Origin: Phytohabitans houttuyneae
GTDB taxonomy: Bacteria; Actinomycetota; Actinomycetes; Mycobacteriales; Micromonosporaceae
Direction of reading: 5' to 3'
Assembly: GCF_011764425.1 (NCBI RefSeq)
Contig: NZ_BLPF01000001.1
Location: 1,169,001 to 1,233,000, forward strand
DNA: 64,000 bases
In this document: one piece after another, positions 5,557-42,919 of the stretch
How the letters are laid out: every line of letters begins with the position of its first letter
Position numbering within the stretch: position 1 is the first letter of the stretch
Made by a program: the position numbers and the translations under genes
Notes under the pieces: model-generated
Told to the model about the DNA's origin: nothing
Seen by the model: only the letters and a program-made list of their open reading frames with translations
Databases searched by the model: none

Positions 5557-5616
5557 TTGATCAGGGACCGGGTGGGCGTGTCGCACGGCGCGCCGCCCCA
5601 TCTACTCCCTGATCAA
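5557..5616. repeat. 60-bp dyad repeat B, copy 1
   Basis: Inverted ends TTGATCAGGGA and TCCCTGATCAA enclose GGTGGGCGTGTCG and GGCG-rich DNA. It sits between the convergent hdeD-like gene and the 445-residue gene, so it may act as a two-way terminator. Near-identical 60-bp copies lie at 9351-9410 and 40475-40534. Confidence 0.8.
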
Positions 5617-5626
5617 CCGCCGGGGG

Positions 5627-9350: not shown

Positions 9351-9410
9351 TTGATCAGGGAGTTGGTGGGCGTGTCGGCCGGCGTGTCCCCCCACGAAGT
9401 CCCTGATCAA
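9351..9410. repeat. 60-bp dyad repeat B, copy 2
   Basis: Ends TTGATCAGGGA and TCCCTGATCAA, internal TTGGTGGGCGTGTCGGCC and GGCGTGTCCCCCCAC. It lies between the TSUP gene stop and the ArsR-type promoter, where it can act as terminator for the former. Confidence 0.8.
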
Positions 9411-9447
9411 CAGGGAGGGGGCGGGGCGGAGGGGGCGGGTGGGAGGC

Positions 9448-37651: not shown

Positions 37652-38868
37652 TTGCCGAGGATCCCGAAGTAGGAACCGGCGGTCTCCACGTCCTTGTCCC
37701 CCCGACCAGACAGGTTGACGATGATGGTCGGCTCGCGGCCGAGCTCCTCGGCGAGCGCGGGCGCGATGGCCAGCGCACCGCCCAGGCCGTGCGCGCTCTC
37801 GATCGCCGGGATGATGCCCTCGGTGCGGCAGAGCAGCTGGAACGCGTCCATCGCCTCGGCGTCGGTGACCGGCAGGTAGCGCGCCCGCCCGGTCTCGTGC
37901 AGCCAGGCGTGCTCAGGCCCCACGCTGGGGTAGTCGAGGCCGGCGGAGATCGAGTACGACTCGACCGTCTGCCCGTCCTCGTCCTGCAGCACGTACGTCC
38001 GGGCGCCGTGCAGCACGCCCGGCGAGCCGCCGCTGAACCGGGCCGAGTGCCGGTCGGTGGTGACGCCCTCGCCGCCGCCCTCGAACCCGTACAGCCGGAC
38101 GCTCTCGTCACCCACGAACGCGTGGAAGATGCCGATCGCGTTGGACCCGCCGCCCACGCACGCGGCGACCGCGTCGGGCAGCGCGCCGGTCTGGTCGAGG
38201 CACTGCTGGCGGGCCTCCACGCCGATGCCGCGCACGAAGTCGCGCACCATCCCCGGGAACGGGTGCGGGCCGGCCGCCGTGCCCAGCAGGTAGTGCGTGC
38301 TGTCCACACTGGACACCCAGTCGCGGAGCGCCTCGTTGATCGCGTCCTTGAGCGTGCGCGAGCCGGTCTTCACCGGGATGACGGTGGCGCCGAGCATCTG
38401 CATGCGGGCGACGTTGAGCGCCTGGCGCTCGGTGTCGACCTCGCCCATGTAGACGACGCACTCCAGGTCGAAGAGCGCCGCCGCGGTGGCGGTGGCGACC
38501 CCGTGCTGCCCGGCCCCGGTCTCGGCGATCACGCGCGTCTTGCCCATCCGCTTGGTGAGCAGCGCCTGGCCGAGCACGTTGCGCACCTTGTGCGCGCCGG
38601 TGTGGTTGAGGTCTTCGCGCTTGAGGAAGATCCGCGCGCCGGCCGCGGCCGAGAAGCGGTCGGCGCGGTAGAGCATCGACGGCACGCCCGCGTAGTCGCG
38701 CAGCAGCCGCCCGAACTCCGCCTGGAACGCCTCGTCCGCCATCGCGTGCCGGTACGCCGCGTCGAGCTGGTCCAGTGCCGCGATCAGCGCCTCGGGCACG
38801 AAACGCCCGCCGTACCGCCCGAAGTGGCCGCTGACGTCGGGCAGCAGGCCGGCCGCCGACGCGTTCAC
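37648..38868 (-). CDS. trpB: tryptophan synthase beta subunit
   Basis: 406 residues. Condenses indole with serine using PLP; the lysine is in [18 protein letters not shown] and the phosphate loop is [18 protein letters not shown] 38868 overlaps the trpC stop (4 nt). Full-length TrpB1 type. Confidence 0.98.
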
Positions 38869-39734
38869 CGGACCGGCCTTGGGGTGGCGGGGTGGTTGCC
38901 CGCGTTGACCAGAGCGGCCACCGCGTCGCGGGGGCTCTTCTGGGTGACCAGGCCCTCACCGACGAGGACCGCGTCGGCGCCGGCCGACGCGTACCGGATC
39001 AGGTCGTGCGGCCCGCGCACACCCGACTCGGCGATCTTGACGATGCTGCTGGGCAGGCCGGGCGCGATCCGCTCGAAGACGGAGCGGTCGACCTCGAGCG
39101 TGCGCAGGTTGCGCGCGTTGACACCGATCACCTGGGCGCCGGCCTCGAGCGCGCGGTCGGCCTCCTCTTCGGTGTGCACCTCGACCAGCGCGGTCATGCC
39201 GAGCGACTCGATCCGCTCCAGCAGGCCGGTCAGCACCTTCTGCTCCAGCGCCGCCACGATGAGCAGCACGAGGTCGGCGCCGTGCGCGCGGGCCTCGTGG
39301 ACCTGGTAGCTGGAGACGACGAAGTCCTTGCGCAGCACCGGCACACCGACCGCGGCTCGCACCGAGACGAGGTCGTCCAGCGAGCCGCCGAACCAGCGCC
39401 CCTCGGTGAGCACGCTGATGCAACGGGCGCCGCCCGCCGCGTACTCCGTGGCCAGGTCGGCCGGGTCCGGGATCTCGGCCAGCTGCCCCTTGGACGGGGA
39501 CGAGCGCTTGACCTCGGCGATCACGCCGACGCCGGGGCGGCGCAGGGCCGCGTAGGCGTCGAGCGGTGGCGGCGCGGCGGCCGCGAGCTCCTTGATCCGC
39601 TCCAGCGACACCCGCTGTTGTCGCAGCTCGACGTCCTCCCGCACACCGGCGAGGATTTCGTCGAGCACACTCGCGGGTCCCCCGACGGCCGGCTTGCCGC
39701 CCTCGTCTTCCGCGTTCGCATGCTCAGCAGTCAC
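38865..39734 (-). CDS. trpC: indole-3-glycerol phosphate synthase
   Basis: 289 residues from GTG 39734, which has AAAGGGGAG 8 nt upstream. Barrel motifs [45 protein letters not shown]-like ([15 protein letters not shown]) and [13 protein letters not shown] are intact. The first 20 residues are variable. It heads trpCBA; its upstream region carries the 101-bp tandem array instead of a simple promoter gap. Confidence 0.96.
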
Positions 39735-39841
39735 CAACGGACTCCCCTTTCCGGGTGTCATTCGCCCGATGCTAGGGGGCGCCACGGACGTGGCGGAGTC
39801 CGGGGTATGGCACGCCTCACGGGTTGGACTGGGGCATAATG

Positions 39842-40459
39842 CCCGAGCCGGTCGGCAAGATCCGCCCCGAGGAGCGCAGCGACGAGGGCGGATCGCGCTG
39901 AGCGCGGGGCATCAGCGAGCGAAGCGAGCGCGGCCAACACAGCCCGAGCCGGTCGGCAAGATCCGCCCCGAGGAGCGCAGCGACGAGGGCGGATCGCGCT
40001 GAGCGCGGGGCATCAGCGAGCGAAGCGAGCGCGGCCAACACAGCCCGAGCCGGTCGGCAAGATCCGCCCCGAGGAGCGCAGCGACGAGGGCGGATCGCGC
40101 TGAGCGCGGGGCATCAGCGAGCGAAGCGAGCGCAGCCAACACAGCCCGAGCCGGTCGGCAAGATCCGCCCCGAGGAGCGCAGCGACGAGGGCGGATCGCG
40201 CTGAGCGCGGGGCATCAGCGAGCGAAGCGAGCGCAGCCAACACAGCCCGAGCCGGTCGGCAAGATCCGCCCCGAGGAGCGCAGCGACGAGGGCGGATCGC
40301 GCTGAGCGCGGGGCATCAGCGAGCGAAGCGAGCGCAGCCAACACAGCCCGAGCCGGTCGGCAAGATCCGCCCCGAGGAGCGCAGCGACGAGGGCGGATCG
40401 CGCTGAGCGCGGGGCATCAGCGAGCGAAGCGAGCGCGGCCAACACAGCCCGAGCCGGTC
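39842..40459. repeat. tandem array, six 101-bp units plus a partial
   Basis: Units start at 39842, 39943, 40044, 40145, 40246 and 40347, with a 12-bp stub at 40448-40459. They are almost identical; the only difference seen is GCGCGGCC (units 1, 2, 6) against GCGCAGCC (units 3-5). Each unit contains the perfect inverted repeat GATCCGCCC...GGGCGGATC with an 18-nt loop, plus AGCGAGCGAAGCGAGCG. The frames running through it are accidental, since they simply repeat with the unit. It lies about 110 bp upstream of trpC. There are no spacers, so it is not CRISPR. Confidence 0.95.
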
Positions 40460-40474
40460 CGCCCTCCCGTGCGG

Positions 40475-40534
40475 ATGATCAGGGAGTTGGTGGGCGTGGC
40501 GGGCGGCGTGGCGGCCCACGGGGTCCCTGATCAA
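40475..40534. repeat. 60-bp dyad repeat B, copy 3
   Basis: TGATCAGGGA at the left, TCCCTGATCAA at the right, internal TTGGTGGGCGTGGCGGGC. It borders the 101-bp array on the side away from trpC. Same element as 5557-5616 and 9351-9410. Confidence 0.8.
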
Positions 40535-40717
40535 CCGCCGGCGGGCGTGGTGGTGTCGCATGTTCGCCGCGTCACGTTCCGGCCATGCGATGACCATCTG
40601 CCGGGATGGTTCGTGGACACTTGATCGGCGGGTCACAGACCCGAAACAGACCTCCCGCACGATCATCTTCAGGCAGACTGTTCGACGGTGCCCGTCACCT
40701 GAACCCGGAGCGCGACC

Positions 40718-41002
40718 ATGAGCACACAGTCCACAAACGGCCTCGTCGAGATTCCTCGTTCGGTCCTTTCAATGGCTGTCGGCATGATCGACACGGTGGA
40801 GCGGGTGGTGATCGGCGACGCCAAGGTGCGCACCGCCCGCCGCAACGCGTGGGAGGCCATCTGCGCCGACCGCGCCCGCGCCCTCCACCACGACGAGGTG
40901 CGCCGCCTGGTGAGTCAGCTCAGCGTCGGGTCCTCGCCGCGGTCCAAGGCGTCCCAGGCCGCCGTCGGCCCGTCCGCCGGCCGCCGCGCCGCGCGCTCGT
41001 AA
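40718..41002 (+). CDS. small conserved-looking hypothetical protein
   Basis: 94 residues, mostly helical ([37 protein letters not shown]), basic Ala/Arg-rich end. No family named. ATG 40718 with CCCGGAG upstream. It runs against the TIGR02234-type gene and overlaps its 3' end by 88 bp. Codon use fits its neighbours, so I consider it real. Confidence 0.65.
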   Translation: MSTQSTNGLVEIPRSVLSMAVGMIDTVERVVIGDAKVRTARRNAWEAICADRARALHHDEVRRLVSQLSVGSSPRSKASQAAVGPSAGRRAARS

Positions 41003-41412
41003 CGCGTCCCCAGCCCGGGCCACGACGGCCCGCGCGCCGCGGTCAGCGCGCCGCCCGCGGCCAGCGCCAGCCCACCCGCCACGCACGCAAGGGCCCACGT
41101 CGTGGTCCGGCTGAGACCGTAAGCGCCACCCACCGCAACACCAAGACCGACAAACAGCAGCAGTACGCCGATCCACCGTCGCGCCCACCGACGAGTGGCC
41201 ACGACCGCGCCCGACCCGGCAAGACCAACCACTGCCAGCGGCGGCAGCCACGGCAGCAGGTCGCCCCCGGTGCGCGGGGTGCGCAGCGGCGGCAGCGGCT
41301 CCGGCCGGGTCACCACGTCGACCACCCAGGTGCGGGTCGCCGCGAAGAGCGCCAGGCCCGCGCCGGCGAGGCACAGGATGACGGTGTACGCCAGCTGGCG
41401 TCGCTCGTTCAT
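40915..41412 (-). CDS. Trp-cluster membrane protein (TIGR02234 type)
   Basis: 165 residues with four membrane helices ([77 protein letters not shown]). Size, topology and place right after trpE match the TIGR02234 family found in actinobacterial trp operons; function unknown. GTG-free ATG 41412 overlaps the trpE stop (ATGA). Confidence 0.9.
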
Positions 41413-42919
41413 CGTGCGGCTTTCAACGTCTCCGCGGCGGCGATGGCCGCGAGGACGGCGGCTGCCTTGCTCTGGGTCTCCCGCTCCTCCGCCGCGGGGT
41501 CGGAGTCGGCGACGATGCCGGCACCGGCCTGCACGTAGGCCCGCCCGCGCCGGATCAGCGCGGTGCGGATGGCGATCGCCATGTCCATGTCGCCGCCGAA
41601 GCCGAAGTAGCCGACCGTCCCCCGTACAGGCCGCGGCGGGTCGGCTCCAGCTCCTCGATGATCTCCATCGCCCGCACCTTGGGCGCGCCGGAGAGGGTGC
41701 CGGCCGGGAAGGTGGCGGCCAGCGCGTCGAACGCGGTCTGGTCCTCGCGCAGCTCGCCGACCACGGTGGAGACGATGTGCATCACGTGGCTGTACCGCTC
41801 GATGGTCGCGAACTCCGGCACCTCCACCGTGCCCGGGCGGCACACGCGGCCCAGGTCGTTGCGGCCGAGGTCGACGAGCATCACGTGCTCGGCCCGCTCC
41901 TTGGGGTCGCCGATCAGCTCGGCGGCGAGGCCACCGTCCTCCTCGGGGGTGGTGCCGCGCGGCCGCGTGCCGGCGATCGGATGGAGCAGTGCCCGCCGCC
42001 CCTTGACTTTGAGGTGCGCCTCCGGCGAGGAGCCGACGATGTCGAAGTCGTCGAAGCGCAGCAGGTACATGTAAGGGCTGGGGTTTGTCGTGCGCAGCAC
42101 GCGGTAGACGTCGAGCGGGTCGGCGGTGGTCTCGCGCTCGAAGCGCTGCGCCACCACGATCTGGAAGCACTCGCCCGCGCGGATCGCCTCCTTGGCCACC
42201 TCGACCGCCTTGGGGTACGCGCCCGCCTCCGTGCGGCTGCGCACCTCCCCGATCGGCGGACTGTCCACTGTGGAGATCATCGGCGGGATGGGGCGGGACA
42301 GCGCCGTGGTCATCGCGTCGAGGCGGCCGACCGCGTGGTGGTACGCGGCGTCGTGCTCGCCCTCCTCGATGATCGCGTTGGCGACGAGGATCGCCGCGCC
42401 CTCGTAGTGGTCGAGCACCACCAGGTCGGTGGCGAGCATCATGCCGAGCTCGGGCAGCTCCAGGTCGTCCTCGGTGAGGGTGGGGAGGCGCTCGAAGCGG
42501 CGCACCAGGTCGTACCCCAGATAGCCCACCATGCCCCCGGTGAGCGGTGGGAGGCCGGCGGGCATCTCGTTGTTGGTGAGCGCGGCCACGGTCCGCTGGA
42601 GGACGTCGACCACCCCGCCCTCGGTGGGCACGCCGGCGGGCGGTGTGCCCAGCCACGCGGCGCGCCCGTCCCGCTCGACGAGGGTGGCCGCGCTCCGCAC
42701 ACCGATGAACGAGTACCGCGACCACGCCGTCCCCGCCGAGCCGGCACCCTGCTCCGCCGACTCCAGCAGGAAGGTGCCGGGTCCGCCGGCAAGCTTGCGG
42801 TACACCCCGATGGGCGTCTCCCCGTCGGCCAGCAGCCGCCGCGTGACCGGGACGACGCGGCGCGTAGCGGCGAGGGTGCGAAAGGTGGCAAGGTCCGGAC
42901 TGACCGCTCCGGTCGTCAT
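41409..42919 (-). CDS. trpE: anthranilate synthase component I (frameshifted in this sequence)
   Basis: About 503 residues when repaired. Makes anthranilate from chorismate with TrpG. The feedback site LLES is present ([10 protein letters not shown]), as are [21 protein letters not shown] and [12 protein letters not shown]. The frame breaks after TRRGLYGG at a GGGGG run (41619-41623, + strand CCCCC). One extra G gives [20 protein letters not shown], the exact family continuation, to the end KAAR. ATG 42919 overlaps the hisI stop. Likely a sequencing gap rather than auxotrophy. Confidence 0.95.

Follow-up and report, generated by a model that had tools for sequence, protein, structure and literature searches.

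The six 101-bp units that lie in tandem upstream of trpC in Phytohabitans houttuyneae are members of a palindromic repeat family dispersed across the genus Phytohabitans and are not a trp-specific device. The array very probably arose in this lineage, when a single copy of a non-autonomous, MITE-like palindromic element of ~102 bp was amplified in tandem. Members of the family are inserted, usually in frame, in unrelated protein genes, including some single-copy housekeeping genes. In the window (the whole stretch of 64,000 nucleotides that was analysed), the array and its surroundings comprise the following features, the strand of the units being that of the family consensus orientation:

38865..39734, minus strand: trpC, with the start codon (39734) set by comparison with relatives
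39735..39831, minus strand: remainder of the conserved trpC upstream block (CATACCCC)
39832..39844, no strand: palindrome GGGCATAATGCCC, opening the conserved block upstream of trpC; the right edge of the palindrome already contains the first bases of the array
39842..39942, plus strand: array unit 1 (tandem repeat and family membership)
39869..39886, plus strand: apical motif GAGGAGCGCAGCGACGAG of unit 1, nearly invariant, recurring each 101 bp
39915..39930, plus strand: 3' motif GCGAGCGAAGCGAGCG of unit 1, recurring each 101 bp
39943..40043, plus strand: array unit 2 (tandem repeat)
40044..40144, plus strand: array unit 3 (tandem repeat)
40145..40245, plus strand: array unit 4 (tandem repeat)
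40246..40346, plus strand: array unit 5 (tandem repeat)
40347..40447, plus strand: array unit 6 (tandem repeat)
40448..40459, plus strand: partial seventh unit, CCCGAGCCGGTC (tandem repeat)
40476..40533, no strand: 60-bp dyad of a separate, mostly intergenic repeat family
40718..41002, plus strand: ORF of 94 amino acids divergent from trpC (88-94 amino acids in five congeners)

The array consists of six full units at 39842-40447 and the 12-bp partial unit. Tandem Repeats Finder placed it at 39841-40459, with a period of 101 (no multiple of three), 6.1 copies and 99% matches, and the six units vary only at unit base 91 (G in units 1, 2 and 6, A in units 3 to 5), which bears out the near-identical array of six 101-bp units that had been described. 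The sequence GATCCGCCC occurs 12 times in the window, always within the array, compared to 2.3 occurrences expected in shuffled sequences (0 of 100 shuffles reached 12). The array is located between trpC (minus strand, start 39734) and the divergent 94-aa ORF (start 40718). The original prediction had the array end at the 60-bp dyad and split the trp cluster. The dyad is indeed close, but it starts 16 bp past the partial unit, and the splitting of the cluster is a loose description, given that the same divergent small ORF precedes trpC in five congeners that have no array there.

A BLAST search of the same genome (11.3 Mb, 5 contigs) outside the array yielded matches to the unit of 73-96% identity, the upper values coming from short pieces and the long matches being 73-84% identical. 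Recent amplification, as originally proposed, is supported by the 99-100% likeness of the units compared to 73-86% for other long copies, and by the finding that congeners carry remnants or nothing at trpC. With a covariance model built from 35 copies (match threshold E ≤ 0.001), we identified 38 matches in this genome, 6 of which are the array, and 47 in G002 (P. suffuscus), 31 in G005, 32 in G004, 11 in G003 (P. flavus) and 2 in G001, these counts being roughly calibrated and drawn from at most 150 scored candidates per genome. In the 150-genome family sample, 7 genomes had a match at 1 × 10−5, namely six Phytohabitans and G071 of another genus, whose four matches include a tandem pair with a period of 102. 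A DNA search of 61 genomes, including this one, gave 7 with a match at 1 × 10−4; the matches in G023 and G028 were partial only, and G001 had none. At three loci of G023, which belongs to another genus (L115, L120 and L125), the match is to the element's 3' motif alone, and the called gene extends 4, 7 and 19 bases, respectively, into it before stopping.

Tandem copies occur elsewhere both inside genes, with periods of 102, 105, 102 and 102 (L011, L020, L123 and L182), and between genes or at gene edges, with periods of 99-102 (L179, L180, L181, L183 and L186). The near identity of the 101-bp repeats would be compatible with a number of units produced by misassembly; however, tandem copies with periods of 99-105 are present at other loci and in other assemblies, and the genome, being in 5 contigs, was probably assembled from long reads, so that an artefact of this kind is very unlikely. 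The outcome opposed to the original prediction was a generic REP occurring at hundreds of unrelated loci. This outcome is borne out in part: the loci are unrelated, but they number in the tens, and the family is not a generic REP. Although the unit shares with REP/RAYT-type repeats its palindromic, dispersed and multi-copy nature, it is ~102 bp long, 42 of 67 copies are intragenic, and a search for the Y1 transposase (PF01797) gave 0 matches in this genome, with 5 of 14 control genomes positive. Because the Y1 transposase is absent from the genome, the REP/RAYT assignment was rejected and is considered extremely unlikely.

The unit comprises an outer stem, a conserved GGCYGGC...GCCGGC stem, an inner stem, the apical motif and the 3' motif. 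In the stems, 7 of 21 pairs are changed on both sides, a value reached in 0 of 500 shuffles. The outermost arms vary strongly among copies, yet each complements its own partner (0 of 10,000 permutations for 52 copies, 0 of 20,000 for 28 tandem-free copies, and 1 of 20,000 for 22 tandem-free copies from this genome alone, shared ancestry being retained in all three comparisons). In the control, a direct, non-complementary comparison of the same outer arms, similarity was slightly above chance (75 of 10,000). The hairpin predicted for each unit is real, but the fold energy of a single unit is matched by many shuffles (z = −1.5 on the plus strand and +0.3 on the minus strand) and is uninformative; the evidence for structure is the compensation between copies. 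The nearly invariant apical loop and the covarying stems would also suit a structured RNA (e.g., an RNase target or an mRNA stabiliser) selected for function at every location; however, a mobile hairpin predicts the same covariation, and an Rfam search over 39000-41400 returned no match of any kind. In size, the element falls among palindromic short repeats (of the order of 100-150 bp), with 12 of 23 measured inserts being 102 bp long.

For the empty-site queries, the two flanks of a copy were joined without the element and searched in congeners. These flank-only queries found contiguous orthologs, and the alignments display empty sites; the copies are missing from orthologous sites, as expected of a mobile MITE. 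Of the 23 inserts in called genes, 21 are a multiple of three in length (binomial p = 1 × 10−8 vs. one third, where the preferred length of the element makes the sites non-independent draws), and 15 are 99 or 102 bp long, i.e., in-gene copies mostly add 33 or 34 codons without a stop. The in-gene insert lengths (bp) are:

First set: L010, L017 and L171, 102; L172, 93; L018, 90; L178, 72; L007, 69; L013, 54; L009, 98
Second set: L112, L113, L117, L122, L127, L129, L131, L161 and L170, 102; L118, L119 and L162, 99; L126, 93; L111, 101

The two exceptions to the multiple of three in called genes are L009 (98) and L111 (101), and the values for L178, L007 and L013 (72, 69 and 54) are net lengths from poor alignments. 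Lengths differed between orthologs for L122 (102, 102 and 97) and L117 (102, 102 and 90), and the matches of L161 extend 24 bases beyond their segment. L008 and L173 lie outside called genes and are excluded from the 21 of 23; L008 (101 bp; 101, 101 and 102 against three orthologs) appears, by eye, to break an SDR-like gene. The intergenic L019 is 101 bp long, its ortholog L226 having aligned badly (57); it is filled in this genome (G000) and in G005 but contiguous in G002, and this distribution over three species implies that some insertions predate speciation. Further repeat pieces in the flanks of L021 and L174 led to their omission from the length and arm analysis, L114, L132, L157 and L167 have no usable empty site, and eight sites of the first set yielded no length (L011, L014, L015, L020, L022, L023, L024 and L168); L016, L025-L029 and L175-L177 were outside the empty-site queries. 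Direct repeats at the left and right ends were not matched in any of 10,000 permutations over 43 copies, a figure inflated by tandem copies; without these, z = 2.8 (105 of 20,000 permutations). The end repeats suggest target duplication, modestly so in the tandem-free comparison. Pairing of the middle arm with a complementary target site was also considered and failed: across the 11 empty sites with arm data (L178 has none), z was −0.1, and the ortholog mean z was −1.3.

The host genes, as identified by Pfam and NCBIfam, encode AftD, nonribosomal peptide synthetase adenylation and condensation domains, an enoyl-CoA hydratase, a xylose-isomerase-like barrel and a Baseplate_J-like protein, among others. 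Hosts also include TrmD, PheT, PyrD, NuoM, HisH, LigD and ValS, an aminotransferase, an ABC transporter, a CoA-binding protein that we take to be Rex-like, and FGE-sulfatase-like, O-antigen-ligase-like, FtsK-like and other proteins; the family search of the L111 and L167 hosts gave no match. In several hosts, the element lies beside, outside, the matched domain (e.g., L161 and L118), and the HisH family match ends short of the element. Comparison of the adenylation domain with solved structures shows matches on both sides of the element, with 59 residues where the structures have 25 (34 extra); the hydratase likewise matches on both sides (81 vs. 23), an excess beyond the element alone. In the TrmD alignment, the insert falls between two well conserved blocks. 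We found no second trmD in G005 and no second pheT in G003. In G003, pheT is broken into three pieces, of which one frame covers the first and second across the element and a different frame the third; pheT of G002 and trmD of G004 are likewise split, so that some of these assemblies may carry small indels.

Gene calls were made with a simple codon-usage ORF caller trained on the window. Among the 67 copies examined (those below 35 bits, with fewer than 80 model positions, or without the core motif were left out), 42 lie inside called genes and 25 outside; in this genome, 18 of 27 lie inside. Such genomes are mostly coding, and the in-gene fraction by itself is therefore no enrichment. When tandem units were collapsed, there were 60 events, 20 outside genes, 34 in sense and 6 in antisense orientation (p = 8 × 10−6 for sense vs. 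antisense). The sense frames were used 13, 20 and 1 times (p = 0.002, weighted by the frequency with which each frame is open). None of the six consensus frames contains a stop; the peptides of the two common sense frames are hydrophilic, with charges of −1 and +2, compared to +12 for the rare sense frame, and 5 of the 6 antisense hosts use the +5 frame, with one (L018) using the hydrophobic frame. That 38 of the 40 in-gene events are confined to the three milder of the six frames is the pattern predicted by selection at the protein level. An mRNA function would also predict the sense bias in genes (34 to 6), but a structured RNA leaves the choice among sense frames (13, 20 and 1) unexplained, and, since empty sites are common in orthologs, no site needs the element; selection for such an RNA at every location is decidedly unlikely.

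At trpC, the array starts at the outer edge of a ~110-bp upstream block that is conserved in Micromonosporaceae. The sequence CATACCCC is found upstream of trpC in 76 of 80 relatives, and GGGCATTATGCCC, allowing at most 2 changes, at 64 of 80 trpC loci vs. 13 of 1,600 shuffles. The palindrome GGGCATAATGCCC, ~110 bp upstream of trpC and conserved across Micromonosporaceae, is a candidate operator or promoter element of trpCBA. Being upstream of the conserved promoter-like block, the array is probably outside the trpC transcript, and it is expected to affect trpCBA little, if at all. The position of the array in the trpC upstream region, directly against a palindrome that 64 of 80 relatives share ahead of trpC, would also suit a cis-regulatory device for trpCBA (an insulator, binding-site array or attenuator). 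We consider such a device unlikely, as relatives of the unit occur at tens of unrelated loci, many of them in genes, congeners have remnants or nothing at the trpC spot, and the conserved block sits between the array and the gene and also occurs in relatives that lack the array. The functions first proposed for the array (insulation of trpCBA, a protein-binding array or repeated RNA hairpins) find no support: relatives of the unit lie at tens of unrelated loci in this genome and in each of three congeners, at 11 in a fourth and at 2 in a fifth, and they are inside genes more often than outside (42 of 67).

None of the five congeners examined has an array in front of trpC. At the same spot, P. 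flavus has a truncated element (nhmmer 28.5 bits, E = 2.6 × 10−8), G005 two fragments that agree with the unit at 20 of 20 and 22 of 24 positions, the part between them being missing, and P. suffuscus no more than weak matches over 33 and 40 positions (~80%); in G004 and G001 nothing beyond 11 positions was found. The TrpC identities are 97% for G002 (P. suffuscus), 96% for G005, 95% for G003 (P. flavus), 94% for G004 and 91% for G001, the two named species, of the genus Phytohabitans in the Micromonosporaceae, being the nearest named relatives. These values fit a single insertion in the ancestor of four species and a later amplification here. On the amplification reading, the element would have been inserted in that ancestor just upstream of the conserved trpC promoter-like block, and the copy would have decayed in three species and multiplied to six units in this one, probably through the short direct repeats with which each unit ends, by slippage or unequal exchange. 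The element would be mobilised in hairpin form by a trans-acting enzyme and would spread as selfish DNA. Its survival inside genes would follow from a length that is usually divisible by three and from several open frames whose peptides are bland. With moderate confidence, we regard the family as a translated selfish palindrome of a free-living, high-GC bacterium, kept harmless within proteins by its length and usable frames, that spreads through conserved genes, some of them without a second copy, and adds mostly 33-34 residues; the trpC array would display its behaviour without the coding constraint.

By behaviour, the nearest kind is the Rickettsia palindromic elements (RPE), the likeness being that of short palindromes inserted in frame in unrelated genes. 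The elements described here differ in being GC-rich and from a free-living actinomycete, in the commonness of tandem arrays, and in hosts that include trmD and pheT without a second copy. Wolbachia has elements related to RPE. With regard to a homologous RPE family, the host differs, the nearest named TrpC relatives being Phytohabitans (Micromonosporaceae) and not Rickettsiales. A review describes RPE as ~150 bp long and found in frame in unrelated genes, almost half of the first 44 copies reported lying within ORFs, and in-frame fusions by intragenic MITEs as not unusual (PMC10969869). For QMITE of Coxiella burnetii, some insertions are reported to be in frame, one supplying the last 33 residues of a protein (PMC5896051). 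Our family resembles bacterial MITEs, including QMITE2, in being small, non-autonomous, dispersed and hairpin-forming, but differs in that 42 of 67 copies are intragenic and in that its ends point weakly to target duplication. PARCELs are palindromic, coding, tandem and judged mobile, and carry a 25-residue amphipathic motif (PMC2996958); they form tandem tracts in ORFs without assigned function, whereas here single inserts, mostly of 33-34 residues, are found in conserved enzymes. REPs, which are 20-40 bp long (PMC3733652), are likewise dispersed palindromes, but the present family occurs without a Y1 transposase in the genome.

The likeness to mycobacterial interspersed repetitive units (MIRU) lies in actinobacterial hosts and tandem copies, but the present family is not confined to intergenic positions, with 42 of 67 copies in called genes. 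MIRU are actinobacterial elements of 46-101 bp, located between genes and in tandem at some loci. Among the open-access literature matches listed, whose titles and abstract openings are no proof of absence from print, there was no in-frame palindromic element from Actinobacteria. In-frame palindromic elements are chiefly known from intracellular bacteria of the reduced kind (Rickettsia, with some insertions also in Coxiella), in which they might be accounted for by weak selection. If our reading is correct, a comparable way of life in a free-living actinomycete with an 11-Mb genome, within genes like trmD and pheT, would suggest that coding tolerance is a strategy of the element itself, and the family would offer a testable system for the insertion mechanism and for protein tolerance. 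It would also serve as a warning that inserts of ~34 residues in enzymes of Phytohabitans can be parasite DNA.

Several other observations were made in the window. The 94-aa ORF (40718-41002, plus strand) overlaps the end of a TIGR02234-like gene. The dyad family, TTGATCAGGGA...TCCCTGATCAA, is also represented at ~5558-5626 and 9352-9429 and is found in at least 40 places in the genome; among 23 places examined (20 plus the 3 in the window), 12 are between convergent genes and 3 overlap gene edges, so that this family looks terminator-like or REP-like, unlike the array unit. The trpE gene (41409-42919) reads in two overlapping frames, possibly as a result of a sequencing indel, and a run of G at ~41620 within it has five G here and in P. 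flavus and six in P. suffuscus. Between 44000 and 47000, there are several overlapping short tandem repeats with periods of 15-72, in sequence that is probably coding.
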